The notes under the pieces are model-generated. The model did no database searches, was not told the DNA's origin, and saw nothing but the letters and a program-made list of their open reading frames with translations. Shown here in pieces: positions 1-64,000 of a stretch of 64,000 nucleotides of DNA. Position 1 is the stretch's first letter. Each line of letters begins with the position of its first letter. The position numbers and the translations under genes are program-made. The DNA is from Allacma fusca. Its lineage: Eukaryota > Arthropoda > Collembola > Symphypleona > Sminthuridae. Location of the stretch: the NCBI GenBank assembly GCA_947179485.1, contig OX359248.1:27661378-27725377 (forward strand), read 5' to 3'.

Positions 1-580
1 ACAATCCCGCCAGTGATAACTCCGCCGAAGCAACCCCGATGATTTAATCCCGATCTCAATAGTTTTTAATCCCGCCAACCATAACCCCGCTGACGATATT
101 CCCGAACCAAGTTTTATTGTATTAACTTCAGTAAACAATAATTGTATGCTCCTATTATTTAATAGTATCCATCTCCTTGATAACAAGCTGTGTACTGTTG
201 ACAGACTGGCTGTTTTGATATGTACCTATATTGTGAATTGTGACATGTGTATGTAGCTGCTCCACTACACCATGTTCATATAATAAAAGTGAAGACACAT
301 GCATGCATTGACTTGATGACTGCCGTTCTCGTTGCAGCATTGTAACCAATGAATTTTGCTTCTGCTTGAATTTATGAATGCATAAGTTTATTACTTTTGA
401 TATTGAGTGATAAATTGTTGTATTTTCACGGTTGTTATAGCAACATTAATTTATATTCATTAAATTCTGTTTCATTGTATGGCGGGATTATCTCATTAGT
501 TGTCGGGATTATCGTGAGCGGGATTATATATGTCGGTCAAATTGACAGCGGAATACTGTTCGCGGGAATACCCTATTGGC
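1..580. repeat. Inverted clusters of AATCCCG units (fold-back-like element)
   Basis: The left end (about 1-110) holds several degenerate units starting AATCCCG, each followed by about 10 bases (near 3, 44, 67 and 87). At about 481-580 the complementary CGGGATTA units appear in inverted orientation (near 483, 503, 519 and 562). The AT-rich middle has no convincing coding sequence. Inverted subterminal clusters of short repeats are typical of non-autonomous DNA transposons. The left boundary is cut by the window edge, so terminal repeats and target-site duplications cannot be seen. The element class is inferred. Confidence 0.5.
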
Positions 581-1277
581 ACTTGCAACCGTCAACAATA
601 ATCACTCTTCTATATCGTTCACTTCCACATCTCTGTGCGCATTCAAACTATACCGCGCGACGCTCGCATGAAATAGTCTTACTTTTCTACACCGTTCACT
701 TCCTCATCGCTGTCTGCATCCTGTATAATCAAAATCAATTCCAGAATCCAGATCGTGGTGTGTGTAAACAATTCAAACTATGCGGCATAGCCCAGGTACC
801 ATAGAGTTTATGCGCTACTACTCGATCGGGCCTTCAACGTACTTTCCAAGTTCCCAACTTCCACAGTACTATCTGCTCTAATAATTCCAGACCGACACGT
901 CTCTCTGTGCGTTCATATCTGCCACGAATGTTGTCTGCTATGGAATTCAATTCTGTCTCCATGCATTACAATTGCAATCTATTTACTCTTCGGAGGACTC
1001 TTCGACTGTTCACATACTTCATCTTTCAATCTAATATCGATCTATTACTTTCTGTTCAGTAAACAGCGTACACGAATTTTTCTGCAAGCGGGACACAACA
1101 CGATTTGTTATTTGCGAAACCCATACTTCGGAACATCGTGTTTGAACTGATGAATAGCTCCTTAGGAGCTTACATGTTATTGCGTGTAGTCAAGTATGAA
1201 TGTTATTGAGTAAAGGTTCGAAAACTAAGTCATCTTCATTTGCTTAATTGACAACACGTAGGTCTTCTGATCGGGAT

Positions 1278-1610
1278 GGGACAATTTCGAAACATAAATA
1301 TGGATCCCATATTACTTCGGGACAATTTTGGATCATTAATATTGATCCCGTAATATTTCGGGGCGAAATCGGCACAAATAGTTTTGCCCCGAGTCATTTC
1401 AGGTTAGGATTGGCATAAATATTGTATTCAAAGGATTTCGGGACTTGGAGGAATTTTCTGCCGGATAAAATGTTTTATTTCAAGGATTTCGGGTTGGGAC
1501 GGAATTTTCTGCTGGAGAAGTAGAAACCCAAAAACATTTTATATAAAAAACAAAGCTGCTCTGAATCCCGAAATACCACGGGGACAATATTTGTACCATC
1601 GAATTATCCC
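1278..1610. repeat. 41-bp tandem repeat array with an inverted copy (fold-back structure)
   Basis: Three adjacent 41-bp units lie at 1278-1318, 1319-1359 and 1360-1400. All begin GGG(A/G)C and end in ATTTC or ACTTC. Three more divergent units follow at 1401-1439, 1440-1490 and from 1491. The last two share an internal GGAATTTTCTG-type segment. On the opposite strand 1570-1610 is again exactly 41 bp and matches the same unit. Direct units facing an inverted unit could fold back, as in Foldback-type transposons. The unit carries the same CCCG-rich flavour as the repeats at 1-580, so the two may be related. Confidence 0.6.
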
Positions 1611-1649
1611 GTCCCGAACCGATACCCAGTACCTACAAAAACACTCCAA

Positions 1650-4600
1650 AATGTGATTTATATGTGGCATTTTCTAGAGCTACGTCGGAGAGTGAAGTAA
1701 AAGTGAAAATTGGTGATACCGACCAGCAAAGAATATTAATTGAGGGGAGTAACTCGATATATACTACCGAAGTTTTTTAAGGTTTCTAATGGTTAATTTC
1801 AATGAATTAGCTTCATGCGGGACTAACTCCTAGCCACTATCAACGGGTCAAACGTAGGGCATGTACAGGGCCTGGGTGGGAAGTTTTCCAAGAGCCCTCA
1901 ACCATGATTTTTTGATCTGATGTAATGTAATGTAAACTATTTGAAATGAGTTGTTTTACTCGAATGTAATCCTCTTATACTAAATTACATTGCCCTGCGA
2001 AGCGGGCTACCTTTCTAGTGCTAATTAATATGCAGCTCCTGTTTAGCTGTGCTGTAACGTTTAACTATCGTTTAATAACCTGAAGAAAAATAGGTAAGTA
2101 GTAGGCTCTATCCACATAATATTTACCGAGTAACGCTTCAAATAAAGAATTTGGCAACCCCTAATACCCTTTGTAACGCCCACTTAACGCTATTATTCTA
2201 TATGACCACTGCAACTGAGTACAATTATTTTTTAATAACAATAATAACCTTTTATGAATTAAAATTGCTGTGCAATTCAAAATTCAACCTCTGTAGGTTG
2301 AGACAATAATTTGTACCTGTTTTATTTTATAATATAATTTTACATAATATTCCAAACGGTTTTTGTCTATACAAATATTTTGTACTTTCAAGTATTAAGT
2401 TTCTTGGATCCTGGACGAAATTATTTTCAATGTGTCAGTTTGATATTGACTAATTATTAGACGCTTGGATTTATTATTGTGAGCTTTCTAAGTGGAGAAG
2501 CAACTTGTAATGAAATTTCCGAAGCTATTGGATAATAAATAAAATTTCCTTGAAATGAAAGCATAACACATGAGGGTAGTAGATAGCAACCATCCCCTAT
2601 AATGATTCGTAATGGTGGTGTGGAAGTTGTCGAATAACCACTGACCCATGGATTCGTTACTTTTTATATTAATCTGTCCAAATTTTTGATTTTTTGTCCA
2701 AGTTTTGGTAAAAATTTTTGATTTTGTCAAACTTCTTGGTAAAAATTTTGAAAACCCAAAAATGGCCACCATGCAATTTCACTAACGGTAAAATGGACTG
2801 CTGAGGTGAAAAATTAAAAGCAAAATGGTGTTCATGCAGCGTTCATTCAAATCAATACGGTCTAGGTGCATCGTATGTTTTACTATGTATGTACATATAT
2901 GCATGCGCATAGTTCTTTTTGCTTTTCGTGAAAACTGCATGTAGACCGTTTTACTTTCAGGGTGGCCTGGAGTTCATTTTTCCTTCAGGCGAAAAGTCAT
3001 TGGTCCATTTTTCTTTTCATCGAAACTGCATTTTCTGCCTCTCAGCCGATGATGTGATACACATAGAATACATGGTATAATAGAAATCAAGTAAGTATAT
3101 TAGAATGATTGATCTTATAAAATGGGTTAGGATCAACATTTATATGCGAATATTGGAATGCCCCCAAGGTATAATTAACTTGTAGTAGACAAAAAACTCA
3201 CGACTAGTGAGAGAAGTAATATGTACTGCTTTTACAGTGAAGGTGAAGAGAAAAGGCCTAAAAAGTAACCAACAAACACTCTCATTATCAGCTGGATAAT
3301 GGTACTGTATTATTTTGTGGAAGGAAAGATTATGCAGTAGTATGGGTTTGGTAGTCTTCTGTAGTGATAATTTTCAGCATTGAAGTTAGTATAATGTGCT
3401 ATCAAAATGTGATTATTTGACATCATTAATATGACATTTCAGTTTTCAGAACATTTGTCTTCTACAACCACGTTACAAGAATTGTGAGGATGGACGAACC
3501 CACAAATTGAAGCATTCAATCATAATCCCTCATAATCCTAGTGGAGAGCAGCAGTAAGTAACCTCAATGAGAAAAGTAGAATTACAACTATCGCTACTTA
3601 ACATCCGCTCACTGTTTATGTATGTGGACTGCCTTGGCTCGGAAATCGCCAAATTAATTATAATTTCAGTTAATAGACCTATACCTTATGATCTGTGGGG
3701 TAAAACTTGTATGTTTATCTTACAAAAAAATAAGGCTTTGTCTTCATTCAAATATAACTGACACGTGCGAATTTCCATCTTTGGCTCAGTTTACAGGTGT
3801 ACTCACCTTGTGGGACACACGGAATTAATTATTCTTGAGTACTCTTTCAGATTCCAAAAATCTCCAGCTGTTTAGCAATAAAGGACTGCCACAAAAAATG
3901 TTCAGTTCATAGGGAGTCCCGCATTTTCCAATAATGGGGGAATATTCTGCAATTCATTGTTTTTATTTTAAGAAGTACGTCAGCCATATCTGTAAAATAT
4001 GTATGTTTAATAATATCAAGTTCTGCACATTATAGGGCGTAAAATGGGGCAGCCAGGCAGCTAATTTCCTAAACCAACAATAATTATCCAAAGAAATATA
4101 TAGTACTAAGTGTTAGATTGTACAGATCAACTTCCAAATATGCTCACAATCAGTCTGCAGTGAATCTGCATGACAACCTACAGTGTTATGTAATACCACC
4201 CTAAATTCTATATCTCATATGTTAAAGTCCAATGAAGTAATACTCTGCAAAAATCCTGAGTAATTACTGAACATTGAATTTCCCAAATTACTATACATTT
4301 GTACTAATGTCAGTTTTGATAAAATCACAATGCAAATTGAAATGATATAATAAAAAATGTTACATAGTAAATGTAGACAAATTAAAGGTGCGTTAACCCT
4401 TGTTTGAAGATAAACCTGTGTGGAAGGTATGGCGAAATGGTGAAGTATAGACTACTGCACTGTAGCTTACTGTGTCAGGTTGCAAATGGATTGTTACCTC
4501 ACAATTTTGGTCTCTTCACGTGCCAATCTCGTGAATGTATAATAAAAATTCAATCGAATATTAAGTATTATAGCATTTCTTGAACTACAATGTAGGAATA

Positions 4601-7600: not shown

Positions 7601-10204
7601 GTATTTTAGCAAACGTTTCTTACTCACGAACGTGTGTCTCTTTTGTTGTTTGCAAGACCATTGACACTATTATAGTAACTCGTTTGGTCTTTTAAAGGAA
7701 CAATTTATTTGACTCCTACTTACCTTATATCTTACAGATATAAATACTTTTGTATAAACGTTGCTGAAACTTTGATTTTTCCCAATCCTCAATGAAAGGA
7801 CTGATAAAAGCAAGGGGTTGTAATAATTCCGTAAAAGCAATTGAGTTTTTAAATAAAAATTTGCAGACATTGCTCACCCTAATTATTACAAATATTGGAG
7901 TGCAATAACATTTTATTGTGTGATTACAATTTAACAAGTGTAAAAAATATTCACGTCAGTCTAACATAGGAGAAAAGTTTCAGAAAGAATATCCTGCGTC
8001 TAAAAGTTTTTCTTTTAACAGCATTGTTTCCCAATTGTAATGAAATCAATGCTCTCATTAATGCCCTTTCATAAGTACAGGATGGAATCGCACCTCATGT
8101 TGTACGTGCTTTATCTTCTGGGTCTAGCCTATGACGAATCTTCAGCTTCAAATATTTTCACCCCTTTCAGAAAAACTTGGCTTTCAAGGACAGAAGTATT
8201 AAGTAGTAAAAGTAATAATTACATACTGAAGTTTGGAAACCATCCGCTCAAATTTTTAGCAGCATCTTGAGAAAGTCCTTTCAAAACTACTATTTTTGGC
8301 AGATGACCCAAATTGTGGACCATGCTTTGTTACGCTTTCCAGGTTGACTTATATTTATCATTGCATTACTGCCGTAAGTACTGAATCCTTCAGCTCTCCC
8401 GGAATTAGGATCTCTAAAATACTTTTCTAATGTCCCACTACTAGTAGATTTCCATGCCCCTTGAAATCCAACACTTCTATTAATGCCTACATTGGTCAAT
8501 CCCAATGTCGCTACAGTGAAATCTAATAATTTATTCTAAGAGCGTGTTATGGAAATTCTATTTGGACAAATTGCTATTTCAAGAGTATAGAAGGAATTTT
8601 TATTAAAATCAAAGTAATAACTGACCGATCTGTAGATAGGATCCTCCTCTGACAGCAAGATGTCCAACACGAAGTATTTTTCAGCAGTGGAAAATATGTA
8701 AGAATCATTGCAAGAATGCATATGTATGTATGTAAGTACTAGTAGCAAGACCTTCCTCTAAAGCATATTAATTCACTTTATATCTGTAATACCCTCAAAC
8801 TTTGCCAAAACTATAGATGTTCCAGAAACAAAGACTCTGAAAACATATTAGCATATAAGCTAAACAACATATTGAAAACTCCCAAAGCCACTTTTTGTTT
8901 TGGAAATTAATCCAAGGTCACAAAAACAAAGGAGAATTTTAATTTCTAAAAAAACAAATCATGTAATTAATTATACGGTCGTCCTAAATGGCAGGCAACA
9001 GAGGAGGGAATGCATGTCTCTTTTTGCTCCATGCACTCTGTACACCTGTCGAGAATAATTTTCAAGTGAACTACTCAAAGGGAACACAGGCTACTCGTTG
9101 GCCTCTTACAGTTTGTGTTCGAGGTAGAGTAATAATGAGAAGCTACATTTCAATGTAAATATCAATAATAATTACTATGTATAAGTGTTAACTGTCTGGC
9201 TTCGAAATAATTTTAGGAATGGCTCTTAATTACAACAATGAATCTGAATTTTATTTTATAAATATTCAAATAATTGAATAAATTCAATTATTTTTTATGA
9301 AACCTGGGAACATTCAGACATTATTAGGGGGAAATATTAAAGCTGCTTCATTTTTTACACGCTATTATCTGTATTTCCAGGGCTGGGTACGACTGAGAAG
9401 CAAAAAAATGTATACTCTTCTTTTAATACACATACATACATGCATGTAGTGTTAAATAAATAAATGTTTGAATTGAAGTAGCCATTTCGTGTTAATAGCG
9501 TTGGGTGCAAGTAAGCAAAGCACTTGCAAAGTGAGTTACATACTTGACATAACTACTACGTTTCAATCGCATTCCCTGTTTGTTAAAAAAAAGTAAGTTA
9601 CTGCACCACAAAGTTCAAGAACTTGCTGGAGACTCTCGATTGCACAACTTTAATAATTATACATACATACTCGTACATTTCAAGAGGACTCTTACAATTA
9701 GTAGCTGTTCATGATGGGAAGTTCATAACTTGAAAACATTTATTTCCTCCCTTGCGTAGCATTATTATTAGAATAATTTGCATGCCACCCCACTTACCAC
9801 TGCCTTTTGATATTGGATTGAGTAACCTTCCCACCTCAGGAACAATCATAATAATTCAAGACTATAGACCTAGCTTAACAATGCTCATTTGGAAAAGGCA
9901 GGGTTTACGGTTTACATTTGCTGACAATGAGAGATTCACAATCCTTCCCTGAGTCAAGTAAAATGTGAAGCGTACCCATCCTGAGCCTGCAACTCTGATT
10001 GTAAGTTGTTTTTGCCACCCTCAACCACGAGAGAAAAAAAGGTGATGCCAATACTAGCTAATCCAATACCTTTCGATTTCCTTTAGAAACCGGTTCTAAC
10101 ATGTAGGAACTACCCATTGGTGTAACTTAAGGGAAGGTGTCTGTATTAAAATTCTCCGACTCCCCAATTTTTTAACCAACTCACATAAAATTATTTCCCT
10201 TTAG
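1650..10204. other. Gene-poor AT-rich stretch
   Basis: No coding region here could be tied to a known family. Open frames are short and lack codon or splice support. The stretch carries scattered ATGTATGTA/TACATACAT runs (near 2884, 8711 and 9424) and one short - strand frame at 8290-8535 that may be a decayed coding remnant, listed separately. Confidence 0.5.
8290..8535 (-). pseudogene. Possible coding remnant, unidentified
   Basis: On the - strand a frame of about 80 codons stays open from about 8535 to a TAG at 8290. It has a balanced, polar composition rich in Ser, Gly and Asn (for example TNVGINRSVGFQGAW, and SQPGKRNKAW near its end). Just past the stop, the - strand reads LSQDAAKNLSGWFPNFS before further stops, so a longer decayed sequence is possible. 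No splice sites or family could be assigned. It could equally be a chance open frame. Confidence 0.15.
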
Positions 10205-35857: not shown

Positions 35858-37649
35858 TCACTTGAAAGGAATAAAAACCTTGTGAATCTTAACAGGTTTT
35901 GCTTCATAATGCTCTTCTGAACTGTCTTCAGCATCTTCCACATCTTCTTCGGAAGATTCCCATGCCTGCTCATCCTCTGCTTCGGCCCAACCTCCTCCTC
36001 CTCCTCCTCCTCCGCCTACCTGTGGTGACTTCCAGCCTCCCTTGTGCTTACGTTTTTTCCCCTTCCCCTTACCCTTGCCCTTACCCTTACCGGAACTTGG
36101 CCAACCTGAGCCTGCGCCTCCTTGTGGAGCCCAATCTGTTCCTTCCCCTCCCTCCGCTGACCATCCTGACCCTTTTGAAGGTCCACCTCCTCCTCCTCCT
36201 TCACCCCAGCCTGAGCTATGCGATGGTCCGCCACCACCTCCTTCACCCCAACCTGACCCTTTTGAAAGTCCGCCTCCGCCTCCTCCTCCTCCCCAGCCTT
36301 CACCTGAGCCTCCGCCTCCACCTCCGCCTCCTTGAGATCCCCAACCCCCTCCTTCGCCTGATCCCCCACCTCCTTGCTGACCCCAACCTCCAGAATTTTC
36401 AGCTGACCAGGGACCTAATTCACACAATAAAATTCCACTACATTATCGTCTGCAAACAGCTTTTGAGAGGATTAAAAATTCACAAATTAATTAGAGCCTG
36501 AACTTAATCAGAAAAATTTTAGTTTGTGTCTCATGTGCTTATTTGATAATTAATACATTGGGATTGCGCTACCTTTGCACTCTCATATACCGAGAAAATT
36601 AAATTGAAAATTTACAATCATTGATATGGTCGACTCAGAGTTTGCACTTATTGTAGGATTTTAAGACGAGTTGAAATTAATTAAAAATTTCAAAATAAAA
36701 GCTCACCTTTTTGCTTGCCGGAGTGTTTCATGTATATATGATTGACTTGGTAGGTTCCATGCCCTCCTCCACCTCCGTGATGGCCTCCGCCTCCGCCTCC
36801 ACCTCCGTGATGGCCTCCACCTCCGCCTCCACCACCATGATGGGCATGTTGGAGTACCGGGTGCTGGAGATCCTGACTGCCTTGATTTTGCTGACTAGTG
36901 CGCTTAGGTTTACCGAATTGGATGATGATACGTTTTGCAGGTATACGGGTGACTTTTTCTTTAGATCCTCCGGCTGAAAAATAAATGTTTAAAATGGCAG
37001 AAATTTTTCCAATATCCGAAATGTATGATAAAAATATATCTATTAAAACTTTCTCTTACTCAAAGAACCACCTTTGCCAGCCAGGTTGTGCCATAAGCTG
37101 CCCTTGCCTGCCTTATTCATTATAAATGACAGAAATTCTTTGCCCGAAACCGAAGGTTGGATACTGATGATTTCTGACACTGGTTGTCCGTGAGAGCTCG
37201 AGTGTCCGCCTCCACCATGACCACCTCCACCATGACCACCTCCGCCATGACCACCTCCACCATGACCACCTCCACCACCTCCTCCTTGTCCCCATCCTGA
37301 CCCTTGAGACGATCCACCGTGTCCACCATGACCACCTCCTCCTCCACCTCCTGGTCCCCATCCTGAACCTCCACCGTGTCCACCTCCGCCATGTCCGCCG
37401 TGACCACCTCCACCTCCACCTCCTTGTCCCCAGCCTGACCCTCCACCGTGTCCACCTCCGCCATGTCCGCCTCCACCGTGACCACCACTCTCGGTGCTAT
37501 CCAGTAAAGCTGCAAGCTAAATAAAAATTATTTTAGCTTTAAAAAATGTAATTTTATTATTCCTGCTTATAATTTTTTAAATTGTAATAATTTTTAAAAA
37601 AATCTCCTACCATAATGCAGGGTATTATTAAATGGAAAAACCGTATCAT
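35858..37649 (-). CDS. Secreted Gly/His/Trp-rich low-complexity protein
   Basis: Four exons on the - strand: 37611-37649, 37060-37516, 36707-36973 and 35858-36414. Phases agree (0, 1, 1) and give 439 residues. Exon 1 is only 13 codons, and with the start of exon 2 it encodes a good signal peptide (MIRFFHLIIPCIMLAALLDS). Residues ~23-121 are GGGGH repeats with three SGWG motifs. Residues ~122-200 form a non-repetitive block (SEIISIQPSVSGKEFLSFIM; KVTRIPAKRIIIQFGKPKR). A second GGH tract follows at ~212-236. Exon 4 has SGWGEGGGGG repeats, a basic GKGKGKGKGKKRKHK stretch, an acidic Glu/Asp/Ser segment, and ends KVFIPFK. The likely role is extracellular structural (cuticle, silk, adhesive or mineral-binding), but this is inferred from composition only. 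His-rich glycine repeats could bind metal. Not recognised as a named family. Confidence 0.85.
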
Positions 37650-49300: not shown

Positions 49301-51424
49301 ATGGGTTTTTGTACCAGGCGACGGGTATACGTGCTCTTTTTGACTGTAGCTACTATTCAAATTGTGAGTAAATAATTAGTTTGTTTCTTTTTTTAGATGA
49401 TATATTTTAAGTAAATATCGTGTATTTAAATTGTTTTAGCGTATGCATTTACGGGACTTTTGCAAGCCCGGTTGTGTGAGTGTGGACTGATTATTTTGTT
49501 TTCGAATTCTAGATTACTACTGGAGCACGACAAATTTTCGACTTCCTTGGACCACTCTGGTCTCTAATTTTCACCAATTTTCTCAACATAGTATTCACAA
49601 TATTTGGATTTTTCGGTGGATACACAAAAAGGAAACACTATTTGATCAGTGTAAGTTTTAGGAACTTCGTGCAAATTAGGAGCTTGAACAAATGAATGAG
49701 ACTTAATTTTGTCTGTGAAATTTGATGTTTTTATTTTATTTTATAGTATATAGTATGGACAATAGCTTGGATGGGATGGAATCTGCTAATACTGTGCCTT
49801 TACATACCCGTTCCTACCATTGAGCCATTCAAATCGGCAATCCTGAGCTTGGGCACCGGCGGTTTCTCATGGTGGGAGACCCGGGCTCCAGGTTGCACTC
49901 CCGATTGGGCGAGTGAAACTCAACTTTTAGTCACCAATTGTTCTTTAGATCCCAGAGTAGTCGAGTGTCTTCAAGCTGGACTTCAAGTTTATTTAGCGAT
50001 AGTTGGTGTAACTGCAGCATTGTGCATAATTTTATTCCCACATTCAAGAGAAGATGATAAAGACTCTGTTTCTAAAAATGGAGATACAACTGGAAGAGGT
50101 TCGTTTTATTCCATATCCCGAAACGGGACTGCAGGAAGATCAGCTCGGCATAGAGCCGCATTAAATTTACCTGGAACAAGTGCTGAAATGGGAGGAACTA
50201 GTGGTAGTAATGGTGTTCTTGGAACAGTTGATGACCGACTACGTCCAATGACTCCTAGGAGGGTGAAAAGAAGATCTGCTCGGAGTATTCAGTCTCAGAA
50301 ATTTGGGCCACAAGGGCATCCTTCTGATAGTGGTAGGGGTAGTGCTGGTCCTAGTGGAAGTGGAAATAGTGCCAGAAACTCCATACGTAGTAATACTAGT
50401 TCAAGAAGGAATAATGCGAGAAACTCTAAGCGAAAAATGAATCATTTTGTGTCGCCTATTAATAGGCTCATGCAACAGGTGGATTCAGAAACATCACACG
50501 ACGATCATCCACACACCAGTCGTTACCCTATTTCTAAATATCCTATGCGCGACCAGGTGAGTGCAATTTATATTGCAATTCCTAGGAGTTATTAGTTGCT
50601 ATAAGTAATAATTTATTACTTGAAAATATATAGGTGTACATTACTTTTAGGTACTATACAAAACCTTAACTGCGTGATATTTTTTTGTTTTCAGGGTCAT
50701 GTAAATCCTGTTTACTTGGGTCCTCAGAGCCCAAGAAATCCTCCACCTCCTCCACGACCACCATCAGCAAGATCTTCTTACTCTAACTACCATCCGGCGC
50801 GCCTCCCGCCCATGACTGCTGCCATGAGTCCATCGATTAATCCTAATGTTCTTAATTTAAATCAAAATATTTTTACAAATCATGCCTTTGATACTTCCAC
50901 GGAGTACAATAACTCTCAGCTATCAAATAATACTAATAATACTTTCTACGAAGAGGAAATTCAGTTCAATCCCGGACCCAATCATATGCCACCTCCTCCG
51001 ACAAATCCAATGACTGTCCGACAAAGTCTTCAATATAAGCACCATAGCTTCGTCAAGGGTGAAGTAAACATTCATCCTGAACCTTCTAGTAATGCACTTG
51101 CATACCCGTTAGCTCATTCTCCTGTTTCGCAGGTAAATAAAGATTTTTATTTTTATTTTCTAAATGATCGTATAATCTAAATATTGACTCTGAAAATTTA
51201 ACAACTGCACATATTGCAGACCATTTTCTGGCTTAGTAATAAAATAATTTTACTGAAATTTTTCTTAGGAATCTTTTCCAATGTGGGGAGTTGCTCAAGC
51301 TCAAGTGCCTACAGGTAGTACAGCTCATCAGCACAATCATAAACCGTATCATCCAATTAACTCTATTCACCCCCATGGCGGTCACTACAGTCGCCAACCC
51401 ATTAACTCTGAAACAGTGATTTAA
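49301..51424 (+). CDS. NKAIN: Na,K-ATPase-interacting protein (NKAIN), long-tailed
   Basis: Four-pass membrane protein of the NKAIN family, which binds the sodium-pump beta subunit at the plasma membrane, mainly in neurons. Exons: 49301-49363, 49513-49650, 49747-50556, 50695-51132 and 51269-51424; all junctions are phase 0, giving 534 residues. The start MGFCTRRRVYVLFLTVATIQ and the following ARQIFDFLGPLW match the family N-terminus. Membrane segments lie at about 8-24, 36-56, 64-87 and 147-164. The 88-146 loop carries Cys117, Cys132 and Cys141. Vertebrate members are about 200 residues long. Here residues 165-534 form a long, probably cytoplasmic, low-complexity tail rich in Ser, Gly, Arg, Asn, Pro and His. 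The 5' UTR part of the first coding exon probably begins at 49232. Confidence 0.96.
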
Positions 51425-53955: not shown

Positions 53956-56900
53956 TTACAAAGAAGCACAATCAAATTTCGGCCCTCTCGTCACTCCAAT
54001 GTCATCGTAAGAGCCATTCTGTACCATTTCCACAGCTTGGTATTTTTTCAGGACCAACAGCGTATAAAATTTTTGGGCGACTTGCTTCCGTGTATTCCTT
54101 GATGTACACATGCTTGAAAAGGGAATGGAAGGTTCAACGTCGAGCTTGGATTTGATGATATGGTACATCTGTGCCGCTCGCTTGTTTAGTACACGAGCTT
54201 CAAATTGTTCATACGTCTCGTCCGTGGCTTGTTCTTCCGGCTGGATTTGTAATAATAAAAAGCAATTTCAGCATTAGATCTAACTAGATACTTAGTACTT
54301 AGGTTCGAAAATATTACACTACGAACACAGATTTAAAAACTGAACACTTACAGGTCCCACAGAAGCAGGAAAATCATAATCATCTTGGCCACCCCACGGA
54401 GTCTGCGGCAACACTGACCCTAAGGCAGGGACAGTCGGCTCTACTACATCTGCATTAAGTGTTGCATGAATATTTTGTAACTGATGAGGGTCTTGAGGTC
54501 CATCATACCCCATGTTTTCCATGAGAGTCATATTAATAGAATTCAGGTCATCGGGGACTTTGGATTCCAAAGGAGGAAGTACAATTGAAGCTTCCGCATC
54601 ATTTCCAGCAGCCAGCCCTGAAATATTTGGTGTGGGAGGAAACAGTGAAGAATCCATACCAACGATGCTGATTGGGTCCGGATTATTATTATCATATCCC
54701 ATGTTATTTAGTACTGGAGGTTCATCCAAAACAGCGCTGGTAGAATCGGTTAGACATGGTGGAGGAGGCATTTCCCCTTCTAAGGGTAAAGTTGGTGGCC
54801 CATCTAAACCGTCATTCTGACGAAGTTCTTCCAATGGCTCCTGATTCTTCCTCTTCCTGCCCCTACGACCTTTCGTAGGAGTGGCTGCTCCCTTGGGAGA
54901 AACAGCAGCAGCAGCCTGTACAGAGGGAGGTGCTGGTGTGTGTGGTGGTCCCAGAGCCGGAGGTCCGTCGAATGGGATTGGATCCATGTTTTCATTATTC
55001 AGGACGAATTCTTCATTCTCAGCTGGGCGAGAAGTAAGATGAGCTTGATAATTTCGGGCTATCACTCGAGATGGAATGTGACGGCCTGGTAAAGCAAATA
55101 ATTTTTCCACGCCACCTGTTTCTTTCCAATGCATCAGACGCTTCGTTGGAGGAGCAAGGTCCAAAGTAGTCACAATATCTGAAGTATCAGAGAGTTGAGC
55201 TTTCATTTCTTCTCCCGAGATATTCTTTACTTCATCCACCACCAACTTTCTTTTTCGTTTTCCTCCGGTTCGAACTCCACCTCTGGCCACAGGGGCCTCG
55301 ATTGGAGCTAATGCAAAAGTTTCTTCTTCATTGTGAAGTAAAGTTGTTTGATCCAGGGCATCATTCTGGTCTACTTCATTTGGATTGAAAATATTGTCGT
55401 CAGGTAGCTCATTCTGCATTGGTTTCTCCGCTTGTAAAGGAGTAGGAGGACCACCTGAACTAGCTATGGACGGTGGGCCGCCAAAATCATCATCTGAGTC
55501 AACGTGCATCGGCTCTGGAGCAGTTGAGGGTCCAGGAATCTCGTCAGGAACGGGTTCATGCATAGACGGCTCGTCAAATAAACCACCTTCGAAAAGGCCA
55601 CCCGCTACAAAATAATAAAGCAACCAATATTTTAACAGAACAATTTTGTACTCAATTGAAATTCGACAATCTAGATGAATTATTTCCAAGAATAATTCCA
55701 TTTCTCATTCAAATTACATACCCATAATATCTTGGCCTAAAGGTGCTCCAAATCCATCATCAGGTGGAGGTTGTATAGAGTCCTTATGTCTCGGTCCGTC
55801 TCCAAATGCGCTTGAAGTACTCGGTTCTCCAAATAAACTAGACTGACTCGGCGCAGGGTCTCTCATCAATTCCGGCGTATCTTCATTCATCTCAAAGTCT
55901 CCGAAGCCTTCATCATGATGAGGGAGGTTTAAAGACCCATAGTCTTCCCTCATCGTAATTTCTTCGGCTCTTGACTGGTTCATTGATAGCTGAGCTTGTA
56001 TGTCAACATCACTATAACAGTAAGCATGAATTTGTAATCAACAGAATACTTTAGTTTGCAAAAACTACCTAAGGAATTGAAAACAATTCAGAACCACCCA
56101 GAACAACGTGGGGTTAACTGTTGTCAACTATAATTTTGGCGCTCTTACTACTTGAAACGATGTACCCATAAATCTTTCCAAGAATGCTCTTGAAAAATTA
56201 GTGCAACGACCAAAACCTGCAAAACCCTTTGTTAAATTGAATTCCCTGATAATTTCAGTGAGCACTTTCCTATAATAACAACTGTATTACTGTTTAAAAC
56301 GATTCAAACTTCTACAAGATGCGAAATGTTTTTCTATTATCTTCTAGGCCTAAATCCCTCAGAAGACACTGATTGACAAGTAATTTTGCTCTTCAGAGAA
56401 TATTTTGTTGAGGGTAGCGACAAATAATCCAGGTCACTAGTACACCACGAATTACATCGTATAAAATGACACAACTGTGACACTGACAGAGACAATTCAT
56501 TAGCTTTTCCCAGCTGCAAAATTCGCGGTCTAATAAAAAATACATAAGAAATTAAAAACCCTACTTTACATCCCACTGATAATTATTATTACTACTTTGT
56601 ACTGACTGATAAAGTGGATATTCTTTACAGATAACACTCTTAAATATTAAACATGTTAGAAAAGTGAGCAAAGTGCTAACAACTACTGGTCCTAGTCACT
56701 TAAAATTCTCCACAGTATCAAATAATCAAAAAAAATTCCTGAACATTCATATAACCGTATTGTCGTCCTCTCCGAAGTGACTTACTATGAGTCCTCAATC
56801 TTTTTCAAATCGACGGTACCCTATTCCGACCCCCTATGCTACACAACTTACAATTACAAAACAAACAATCATTGAAATCTTCCAAAAACTAGAACCATCA

Positions 56901-58932: not shown

Positions 58933-60212
58933 GATTTTTCTTTAGAAATGTCTAATATGCACTGTATTCAATTATTTTAGATCTCCTGACTATAATATCT
59001 ACATCATAGGGGAAGGCCCAAAATGGATCAGATGAATTCCCAATTAAAAGGAATAGCTTTATGTTAATATAAATCCAAGCATCCTCCCCAAAAGCAAGCA
59101 CCTTATAATTTTGTACTAAAAGTAAAAATCGGACGAAGTACATTCTAAAACATTTGCTACAAGTAGTCCATTTTGCCACGATTGCCACCGTAAAATCCAC
59201 CAGTCCACTTTGTTTTTAATTTTTAATACACTTGCTAATCTACAAATCTAATGAAACAATGAAGTATATAAAATGAGTTTCATTATGAAACTCATTTTAT
59301 ATACTTCATTGTTACTTGTACCGACAATACAAAAGTCCATTTTACCTCTTAACTCATACACGTGCATTGCCGTTCATATCATGGTTAGTTCTGTCCTCAT
59401 TACTTTTCCAGTAACAATAAGTCTCACGGCAAATATTGAAAATTGGAAGGATAATTATTTATTATTGTTAAATTAAAGTTAACTGGCATCATCAAGGGGG
59501 GTTAAAAAAATGGGACACATAGGCGACTGTAGAAGCTAGAGGCTACAAACAGTGGAAAGGTACCAGCACATGTAAGCATTCTAGCGGCCATCGGAGTATA
59601 CGGAGTAAGTTCCCGCCGTTAGTTTCCTTTGTGAGAAATAGGTTGTGAGCAGGTGGTGCTCAAGTGGGAATTTCTTCATTTGATTGCCTTGGCTCGTTCA
59701 ATCACATACGAGCATTGTACATATAGGAAGCAGTAGCAGCTAAGCAGCTAGCAGGGTTTACGTGCTACAAAAACTTAATAGTCAACTGCTGATGAGAGCA
59801 GGAGCACATATCGTATGCTTCTTATACTCGCTCTTCGTTAATAGCACAGTTCATTGTGATCTTTCGAGAGTTTATACGACTGTTTCTAGTAGACAAACAG
59901 TAGATAAATTAACGATCAAATAATTGTGATCTATTGAAATTTCTTCATTGAATTCTCCCTCAGAAACACCCAATTTCCAGAATTTCCACCGTTTCATCCG
60001 ACCCTTTTTAATCCCTTGAAATTACAAGATCCTTTACCAAATGGACTACTTTAATTTATGAACGTGTCAGGATTTAGTTTGAGAAAAGAAAATAATAAAA
60101 GTAGGCTTCCAGGCCTAAATTAGAAATCAGTGATATACGGATTATCCCGAAACCAGGTTCGAGTTCAAAAGGAATAATTACTGCTGAAGTGGGTCTGTGG
60201 GACTGATACAGA
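58933..60212. other. Intergenic region SOSS-B to UBE2S
   Basis: Holds the perfect 59-bp palindrome at 59255-59313 and then the upstream region of UBE2S. No coding sequence is supported. The open frame starting at 59273 begins inside the palindrome. Confidence 0.6.
59255..59313. repeat. Perfect 59-bp palindrome (29-bp arms, 1-base centre)
   Basis: Bases 59285-59313 are the exact reverse complement of 59255-59283 around a single T at 59284. The arms read AACAATGAAGTATATAAAAT onward. Such a structure would extrude as a cruciform or fold as a long RNA hairpin. It may be a transposon relic, or an artefact of amplification or assembly. Confidence 0.9.
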
Positions 60213-61296
60213 ATGTCATCGTCCTCGGTAATGCGTGCTAAAAATTATGTCGTCATAAATCTTTTTTCCCTGTATTTTTTTTTGTAGAGGTAGGAAATGT
60301 GTTGATTTAATGGATGGAGAGTAAAGGGAATTTTTGTTTGTTTGTAGGTTTCTAATGTGGAAAATCTACCCCCTCATGTATTACGTGGCGTTTCAAAAGA
60401 AACTGTAGCGCTGAGTCAGGAACCTCCAGAAGGTATACAACTGCATCTTAACTATGATGACCTGACAGACATCCAAGCGACTATTAATGGTCCAGGTAAT
60501 AATAATCGACTTTTGAGGTTTTGTTTGACGGAGATGTGTAGTGTGTTTTGTTATTCGGAGGTTCGGGTTCGGTGGTAGGCTGATAGTTGATTAGGAAATT
60601 TAGGAATGCGTACATGTGTGTGTGTGTGTATTGTGGTGTTGATGTTTGTATTGGAGTGATGGGGAGGGATTTTCTTTAGGTAGAGGTGATTTTAATGTTT
60701 CGATTGAATTAATTTTTTTTTGTAGAGGGAACGCCATACGCTGGGGGTGAATTTAAGGTTAAGCTAGTTCTGGGGAAAGATTTTCCTGCTGCACCACCAA
60801 AGGGGTTTTTCCTTACTAAAATATTCCATCCGAACATTGCCACAAGTGGAGAGATATGCGTGAACGCTCTTAAAAAGGACTGGAAACCTGATCTTGGGCT
60901 CAAACATATCCTGTTGGTAAGTAAAATTACTGGGGTATTTTTTAAGATCGGGCTTGAAAATAATTTCAAGTTCAATAATCGAATGTAGAGAGTAATGTGG
61001 TGAAGGAGTTGTTGGGCTTAATACAGTGGTTAGTGAATTCTCGTGATGGTACGTAACGTGGAATTTGATTTGGTGTTTTTTCGTAGGTCATTAAATGTCT
61101 TCTGATTGAGCCGAATCCTGAGTCGGCTTTGAATGAAGAGGCTGGGAAGTTACTTTTGGAAAATTACAATGAGTTTCATCAGAGGGCAGCTCTGATGACG
61201 GAAATTCATGCAAAACCTCAGCCTACTTCGCCACCTTCGATGAAGTTGAAAGCGAAAGTTCGGAAGGATAAAAAGAAGACTTTAAAGAGACTTTGA
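60213..61296 (+). CDS. UBE2S: Ubiquitin-conjugating enzyme E2 S
   Basis: E2 enzyme that extends Lys11-linked ubiquitin chains for the APC/C, driving mitotic exit. Exons: 60213-60227, 60348-60495, 60726-60916 and 61087-61296; phases agree, giving 187 residues. The first coding exon is only five codons (MSSSS). The UBC fold shows [17 protein letters not shown] at the start, [20 protein letters not shown], and [15 protein letters not shown] with HPN at 89-91 and catalytic Cys99. The family signature [16 protein letters not shown] follows. The basic tail ends KKKTLKRL, like the Leu-Arg-Arg-Leu tail of vertebrate UBE2S that docks on the APC/C. The tail is somewhat shorter than in human (222 residues). 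Confidence 0.98.
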
Positions 61297-62688: not shown

Positions 62689-64000
62689 TCAATCTTCAGT
62701 GTTCAGTCCATTTTCATTATATAAACTAAATACTGAAAACATCAACCCCAGTAGATCCATGTGGTAGTGAGGTTTAATATGAGCCACTGCTCCTGTTTTG
62801 TCACTTTTAGGCCTGTTATCATTTCCGATGAATCTGTGGTTGTATGGGTTGAAGAGGATTTTAGTAGAAGATATTACGCTCCGGTTTAGTCCAAAAGTAC
62901 ACGAAAGCATCTTACCGGGCTCTCGCTCCGACTTTAATGTTGTTAATGCTTCCAGCTAGCAGCAAAATGAAAATATTGTGTATCACTATTTTGATTATAT
63001 GATTTAATTGCACTGTTCAAAAACTTAATTCATATTAACTTGATTCATCGAAATTTTGATGGGAGTGTTAAAAACATAAACTTGAGCCATTGGGAAGCAC
63101 GGTGGTACTGGAAATGTGCCATTCCTGTAGTAATAATATGTACTCTTTTCGGGCAGTAACCAAGTAGGAGAGAAAGGAGTACCAATATTCACGAAAAAAT
63201 CTTCGTCTGTGTCATCCATATCAAAATTCCCAGCTTTATAAGACTTTGCAGCTTTAATCACAGGGTCAAATAGTACATTGTCCCTTTTGCCTTCAGCCTA
63301 AAATGTATTCCGAAAACTATCTTCCAGTCGTTGAAATAAATGTAGGCTTCAGGAGAACGAGCTAACTTTTTCAGTTAATTATACGTGAAAGTTACAGGGA
63401 GAAGCAACTTTAAATATAGGTGTTTACCTCTCCTAACACGCTCACCATGATGATTTGAGTCTGATTGTTTTTCGGTGGCAGATTGTTATCTATACCAATA
63501 TCCCGTGGTTCGGAAATAAATACCATGTTGATCTCCAGCGGAAAACTACATAATCAAAATGTTCTGTTCAAAGTCCTCCTTATAATAATAGTCTAGAATT
63601 CAGTTGTATTCACCGTTTGCCATTCAATTGATGCGAAGTCCTCTCTTTAGCTGCAATTTTGAAGTCACAGAAGGAAATGGAAGCAAAATTGAAATCATAG
63701 GATATAGATGATTGAAAAGGAGGATCGTAGGAATCCAATATTTGAATTAATCCCAGTCTGGGACCTCGAATTTCCACTGACAAATTTAGGAAACATTTTT
63801 ACGCCCGTGTATTCATCCATATATGTAAGTATACATTCTGCTCCATATTCAATCAAAAGACTACGTTTGTATCGTATAAGTATTAATAGAGTATACATAC
63901 AACCATAATAAATATCCGTGGGGTAGCCAAACTGCCAGGGAACGTTTTCCAGACCGTCACGCATTTGAAAAGTAATCGAAGGCTTTTTTTCATCCAGCTC
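62689..64000 (-). CDS. Alpha-carbonic-anhydrase-like protein, zinc site lost (5' partial)
   Basis: Exons on the - strand: 64000-63904 (runs off the window), 63776-63614, 63545-63428, 63297-63040 and 62955-62689. Introns are 68-130 bases and phases agree, giving 300 residues plus stop. Family marks: SHQLNGKRFPLEINMVF (as in SEHT-x-DGKR-x-P-x-E-L-H), RNGTFPVPPC (as in the G-S-L-T-T-P-P-C region), VFNTPIKISMNQLEALTTL, and NDNRPKS near the end. The paired zinc histidines are missing (region reads ASISFCDF, fragment residues 64-71). The third is Asn93, and the Thr199 gatekeeper position is Pro. Glu91 and His81, equivalents of Glu117 and His107, remain. It therefore cannot be a normal CO2 hydratase and is probably a carbonic-anhydrase-related protein. 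The signal peptide and N-terminus lie outside. Junctions 63904/63776 (donor TATG|GTTG) and 63040/62955 (donor GTTAAT) use weak donors. Confidence 0.8.

Follow-up and report, generated by a model that had tools for sequence, protein, structure and literature searches.

A carbonic anhydrase-like gene of Allacma fusca with all three zinc ligands replaced, probably encoding a secreted protein

Near the end of the window (the whole stretch of DNA analysed, 64,000 nucleotides at C12:27661378-27725377, from a genome of 392.7 Mb), a minus-strand gene encodes a carbonic anhydrase (CA) domain in which all three zinc-binding histidines are replaced. What distinguishes it is the loss of most of the catalytic pocket rather than the loss of the three ligands. 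The explanation that we find reasonably likely is that this is probably a working gene whose product is probably a secreted CA-related pseudoenzyme, most likely derived from the secreted CAs of the same genome.

Gene model and carbonic anhydrase domain

Five exons lie within the window, joined by GT-AG introns of 124, 68, 130, and 84 nt, and together they provide 301 codons with no in-frame stop. The earlier note had described a five-exon gene, which is correct for the window, but the full model has eight exons and 416 stop-free codons, three of the exons lying past the window edge. All three were picked by eye, as were their junctions, and the third has a weak donor, GTCAGT. The features of the gene are listed here; exons 4 to 8 are exons 1 to 5 of the earlier note.

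Window-equivalent 65628-65745, 65343-65405, and 65104-65246, minus strand: exons 1, 2, and 3, picked by eye in the flank
63901..64000, minus strand: exon 4, cut by the window edge and running to window-equivalent 64021; donor GTATGT; open frame
63614..63776, minus strand: exon 5, with the position of the HxH strand of active enzymes and then the His107 equivalent; open frame
63667..63681, minus strand: SISFC, probable counterpart of HFHWG
63631..63633, minus strand: His107 equivalent, in TSHQLNGKR, from phmmer and hmmsearch alignments
63428..63545, minus strand: exon 6, FPLEINMVF...VSVLGE; GT-AG; inside the Pfam and PDB matches
63527..63529, minus strand: Asn in place of the third ligand, His119, from phmmer and hmmsearch alignments and reference comparison
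63040..63297, minus strand: exon 7, the best preserved block, LLPEKSTYYYYRNGTFPVPPCFP...ISMNQ
63097..63120, minus strand: GTFPVPPC, counterpart of GSLTTPPC, with Leu198 to Phe, Thr199 to Pro, Thr200 to Val, and Cys203 kept
62689..62955, minus strand: exon 8, with the strand region of the C-terminus followed by an unmatched tail up to the stop codon
62834..62915, minus strand: splice-like pair GTAAG...CAG within exon 8, probably not an intron

The in-window protein matches Pfam PF00194 (Carb_anhydrase) at E=1.7e-14 and 54.5 bits, against a cut-off of 27, over residues 80-226 of 301 and profile positions 96-229 of 254. The full-length protein of 416 aa scores 53.6 bits, and exon 7 exceeds the cut-off by itself (28.8 bits). 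This profile search had been proposed in the earlier note, and its result bears out the claim made there of a CA-like gene. Among solved structures the top match is the CA domain of PTPRG (E=4.7e-10), followed by CA XIV, CA XII, and PTPRZ, and PTPRG is also the best reference, with 37 of 129 aligned residues identical. The second half of the domain is thus homologous to CA, and with a CA domain devoid of ligand histidines the gene belongs, by sequence, among the acatalytic alpha-CAs, or CA-related proteins (CARPs) in the wide sense. The Pfam match leaves out the stretch expected to carry the HxH pair. When exon 4 and the end of exon 3 were compared with their counterparts in three other CA genes of the genome, only 1 of 500 shuffles scored as high for the divergent gene L024, as against 239 for L015b, also divergent, and 315 for L014, an ordinary secreted-type CA.

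The N-terminus of the modelled protein is hydrophobic and signal-like (Kyte-Doolittle maximum 2.09 over 15 residues), and is followed by GPQNW in place of the GPENW-like motif and by TPLNI in place of QSPINI; the protein also contains four N-glycosylation sequons. From the hydrophobic N-terminus we judge that the protein is probably secreted. A Pfam search of the full protein returned the CA domain alone. The CA-like domains of PTPRG and PTPRZ form part of receptor phosphatases, an architecture absent here, the frame stopping about 75 codons past the last conserved helix. Scored by codons against the remaining coding exons in the window, the modelled frame was favoured in what the earlier note numbers exons 1, 2 (its front), 3, and 4, but the score was powerless once amino-acid make-up had been removed. 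The chance probability of an open frame is 0.048 for exon 5 and approximately 0.002-0.005, by shuffling, for the last exon.

In that last exon the frame continues for about 75 residues past the last conserved helix, and the splice-like pair within it offers a second form. The first 37 residues of the read-through form, compared with the last exons of L024, L015b, and L014, were equalled by 9, 9, and 39 of 500 shuffles, whereas the spliced form was equalled by 131, 17, and 223. Pfam and the CA profile both placed the spliced form 1-2 bits above read-through. An intron inside exon 8 is nonetheless unlikely in view of the paralog matches and the openness of the frame, and reading straight through, which appears better supported, is kept with reserve. 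The claim that the C-terminal tail does not look like a standard CA is qualified by these paralog matches; past its first part the tail matched nothing.

Scans by short exact peptide patterns found no relative in viral contigs (125-residue query) or in prokaryote genomes (213-residue query), and Rfam gave no match at gathering scores. A second weak match, at 8133-8249, was judged by eye to be due to chance. Elsewhere in the window, on the plus strand, are a ubiquitin-conjugating enzyme gene at 60348-61296 (Pfam UQ_con, 76.8 bits for one exon), which we take to be UBE2S-like, and an exon of the NKAIN family at 49747-50595 (Pfam, 58.9 bits). On the minus strand, a long open frame at 54319-55704 has no Pfam match and resembles RAD21 cohesin, and glycine-rich frames at 35858-36442 and 37043-37516 with GGHGGGG-type repeats, also without Pfam match, possibly encode structural proteins. 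A palindrome at about 59251-59317, whose arms measure about 33 bases and mismatch at no more than 2 positions, resembles a short inverted-repeat transposon.

Zinc ligands and the catalytic pocket

The alignments agree with the earlier note that the third ligand is Asn (LEINMVF), that Pro occupies the Thr199 position, and that the equivalents of His107 and Glu117 persist. The note was likewise right that every ligand is replaced, as no His occurs where the pair is expected in either of two possible registers; its reading of the pair as SFCD-type sequence holds in that no ligand His is present, but its register is probably wrong. The front of exon 5 scores no better than shuffled sequence: its score was reached by 38 of 500 shuffles against the CA N-terminal profile and by 64, 150, and 248 of 500 against the counterpart exons of L024, L015b, and L014, so the identity of the residues replacing HxH rests on position. 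From the shared phase-1 intron to a Tyr there are 26 residues both in this gene and in the exon of L014 that carries HFHWG, which aligns YVFSQLHFHWG to YDFNFASISFC and makes the replacements His94 to Ser, His96 to Ser, and Trp97 to Phe. Strand alternation is kept in the SISFC register, which gives this gene 3 extra residues ahead of the His107 equivalent. In the MAFFT alignment the pair becomes Ser and Asp, with a one-residue insertion, near the SFCD version. The SISFC register is probably the better of the two, and under both the ligand His would be missing.

It might be argued that the gene model is an artefact, and that true splicing uses other exons which restore the histidines. The N-terminal half goes unrecognised by the profile, and a few bits are gained with other splice combinations: among 266 stop-free alternative models (GT-AG introns, up to three in the stretch, scored against the CA profile), the model of the earlier note ranks 245th, at 41.7 bits against 47.7 for the best. 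However, not one of the 266 has an HxH before the His107 equivalent; exon 5 has no His ahead of that equivalent, and no HxH occurs in the three minus-strand frames of 63600-64000. The modelled junctions moreover sit at conserved intron positions, and Asn119 and Pro199 lie within well-aligned exons. We therefore reject the alternative splice models of the N-terminal half, none having HxH and the score gaps being only a few bits, and consider an artefact of this kind very unlikely.

The changes extend well beyond the ligands. In the well-aligned block Glu106 is replaced by Ser, Tyr194 by Arg, Val207 by Ala, and Trp209 by Val, while His107, Glu117, Gly196, Pro201, Pro202, and Cys203 are kept. When positions inside the alignable block were counted as conserved if 6 or more of the 8 reference CAs agreed, the protein kept 2 of 10 in the pocket against 16 of 25 elsewhere (Fisher two-sided p=0.027, uncorrected). 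The sequences used for CA2, CA9, CA4, and CAH1, four of those references, are provisional, as is the assignment of positions to the pocket. Other acatalytic relatives, each removed from the reference in turn, kept far more of the pocket: 7 of 9 positions in CARP8, 8 of 9 in PTPRG, and 8 of 10 in PTPRZ, with 18 of 20, 17 of 22, and 17 of 21 elsewhere. Pocket and structural positions are thus both eroded in the present protein, the pocket more so, although the statistic is a small one.

By the usual marks of a catalytic alpha-CA, His94, His96, and His119 are all missing, and the gatekeepers Glu106 and Thr199 are Ser and Pro; we infer a protein without catalytic zinc that would not hydrate CO2. 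A still-catalytic enzyme, with altered chemistry or with another metal site built for example from a nearby Cys or Asp, could draw on the Cys and Asp that follow the SIS stretch and on the report that a carboxamide in place of a ligand His in CA II keeps part of the activity (Lesburg et al. 1997, as cited in PMC5437132 and PMC6639325). Nevertheless, the replacement of Glu106, Thr199, Thr200, Tyr194, and Trp209 means that the catalytic network has gone as well as the ligands, and we regard retained catalysis as very unlikely. A non-catalytic scaffold, as the earlier note proposed, would remain the simplest reading of a gene with three ligands gone and an open frame.

Relatives in the genome and the question of decay

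Exon by exon, 42 Pfam CA matches were found in the genome, and 19 CA genes were modelled, a set that is possibly incomplete, with several models cut and the start of L024 uncertain. Fourteen have the His-His-His triplet, and the other five are the present gene, L024 (I-H-Q), L015b (Y-H-E), L017 (H-H-Q), and L020 (Y-R-Q). The last of these (C5:13135398-13142843, plus strand) is a CA10-like gene that has lost all three ligands and kept the gatekeepers; 86 of 207 residues are identical to human CA10. The statement in the earlier note that known CARPs lose only some ligands is accurate for the three tested, CARP VIII (R-H-H), PTPRG (E-H-Q), and PTPRZ (T-H-Q), but fails as a general premise, L020 in the CA10-like line having lost all three.

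The introns offer a further line of comparison. Those of the present gene fall at IYYG/L (phase 1), NGK/RFPL (phase 2), VLGE/ (phase 0), and SMNQ/L (phase 0), the slash marking the junction, and the same 1-2-0-0 pattern (NGHT/, NNQ/RFPL, VFFE/, SxxQ/L) recurs in L024 and in ten His-His-His models, namely L010a, L025, L011, the second of L013, L014, L015a, L016a, L018, L019, and L021, the third intron of L011 being displaced by a modelling slip that leaves its phase unchanged. The flanking phases of exon 5 (1 and 2) thereby agree with His-His-His paralogs and those of exon 6 (2 and 0) with paralogs generally. Two cut models, L012 and the second of L016, have the first three introns of the pattern. 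In contrast, a phase-0 intron falls at FPAE/LQ in L017 and L020 and at YPAE/IHLV in L022 (His-His-His); L023 deviates in its first intron, and the phase-2 intron is missing from L015b. The shared introns would mean descent from the 1-2-0-0 line, separate from the CA10-like genes, and so suggest an origin from the secreted CAs of the same genome and apart from the CARP X-like line, in a comparison of introns among the CA genes modelled in this genome.

The trees were less informative. One of 10 rows gave the gene no placement, and one of 26 rows gave it a branch of 5.13 changes per column with a weak join to L015b (64/87), which we flag as a meeting of long branches. With respect to the CARP X/XI (CA10-like) clade, the gene has introns unlike those of L017 and L020 and is not grouped with them in the tree, although its long-branch placement is unsure. 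The 26-row tree grouped L024 with PTPRG and PTPRZ at 96/99, which either speaks against the shared introns or is an artefact beside them; this placement, with the intron comparison confined to the modelled genes of this genome, weakens the claim of a separate origin.

A genome search with the protein itself, in which three candidates were scored, found no close copy; besides the gene itself, one stretch inside L024 scored E=0.137, with 55% over query residues 179-212, and L015b was absent. L024 (C5:3915767-3918751, plus strand; L024 positions 268-3252) is a divergent CA-like gene with an open frame, long loops, a hydrophobic C-terminal end, and Thr199 kept, and is nearest to the present gene in the last conserved block; the two have four introns and PPCFP...TPIKIS in common and differ in the I-H-Q triplet and kept Thr199 of L024. 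L015b (C12:11971194-11972922, minus strand; L015 positions ~195-1923), also divergent and with an open frame, has an acidic stretch at its N-terminus and closes with a hydrophobic segment, a possible GPI signal. Its GLYPLNPC in place of GSLTTPPC, with Thr199 to Pro, resembles GTFPVPPC, but it differs in its Y-H-E triplet and in having three of those four introns. About 0.56 Mb from the window, at C12:28283779-28368485, lies a cluster of ordinary His-His-His CAs (L010-L014, L025).

Conservation of introns and simulated decay also served as tests of whether the gene is a decaying CA pseudogene, stop-free by luck or because decay is recent. The very long branch (5.13 changes per column), the loss of 9 of 25 structural positions, and the fact that part of exon 5 and the tail are unrecognisable as CA would all suit such decay. 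Against them stands a 416-codon frame open over eight modelled exons, with GT-AG junctions of which four match paralogs in position and phase, and the losses appear concentrated in the pocket. When 5%, 10%, and 20% of sites were changed at random in a simulation (substitutions only, with indels uncounted), 8%, 0.7%, and 0.05% of 2000 copies stayed stop-free, whereas the protein has just 37 of 129 aligned residues in common with PTPRG. The open frame, the kept junctions, and this simulation argue against long-standing decay, and we consider a pseudogene unlikely.

Comparison with known systems and a possible role

The secreted-type alpha-CAs of the same genome (such as L014, L016a, and L019) share the domain, the four introns with their phases, and the Cys203 equivalent with the present gene, but keep His-His-His, Glu106, and Thr199-Thr200. 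The CARP X/XI-like genes (CA10, CA11; here L017 and L020) are likewise acatalytic by sequence, and L020 also lacks every ligand; L017 and L020 differ in having other introns and in keeping Glu106, Tyr194, Thr199, and Trp209. The CA-like domains of PTPRG and PTPRZ similarly lack His94 and His119, but keep His96 and most pocket positions. Red coral CruCA2 is called acatalytic and has the same gatekeeper change of Thr to Pro, but has lost two of three ligand histidines (to Tyr and Arg) and kept one (PMC4981384).

In the literature, CA-RPs are described by the loss of at least one ligand His (PMC4393933), the pattern R/H/Y-H/R-Q/H covers most CARPs (PMC4981384), and a mussel nacrein-like protein has one ligand His (PMC6639325). 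For insects, CARP X-like sequences are described as present in all available genomes (PMC2873310), with two CA10-like genes (PMC4539348), CARP-A and CARP-B being names for the CARP X/XI-like proteins (PMC4539348). No insect CA that has lost all three ligands is described in the literature searched, which came mostly from outside subscription journals, although papers on insect CARP X may describe one. The secreted CARPs of cnidarians are said to have several origins (PMC4981384), and together with the Pro of CruCA2 these repeated origins provide precedents for both features of the present gene. The protein is an extreme variant among well-known inactive CA relatives and not a new kind of protein.

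Under the pseudoenzyme reading, a secreted CA ancestor would have lost its zinc ligands and gatekeepers while retaining an open frame and its introns. The CA fold would be retained, judging by the presence of a number of buried positions, of an equivalent of Cys203, and of an upstream Cys as its candidate partner, and another molecule may be bound by the surface or by the emptied pocket. Where an acatalytic CA protein has an established role, that role is binding: neurexin is the partner of CA10 in the secretory pathway (PMC8024894), and in the CA-like domain of RPTP-zeta a hairpin is needed for binding to contactin-1 (PMC12139414). A binding role is proposed here by analogy, and a secreted binding protein would be the most likely nature of the product. 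A more specific version, in which the product is a lineage-specific secreted protein that came from active secreted enzymes apart from the CA10-like line, had nearly its entire pocket rebuilt to bind a new ligand, and makes up, with L015b and L024, a set of three or more strongly diverged CA-derived binders, strikes us as possible but doubtful.

The gene seemingly keeps the frame of a very well studied enzyme with the pocket mostly replaced, and its genome also has fourteen ordinary copies among those modelled; the demands of a standing CA fold can thereby be compared directly with those of catalysis. Should the protein prove to be expressed and to bind a partner, it would represent a further origin of acatalytic CA proteins, few of which have a known role.
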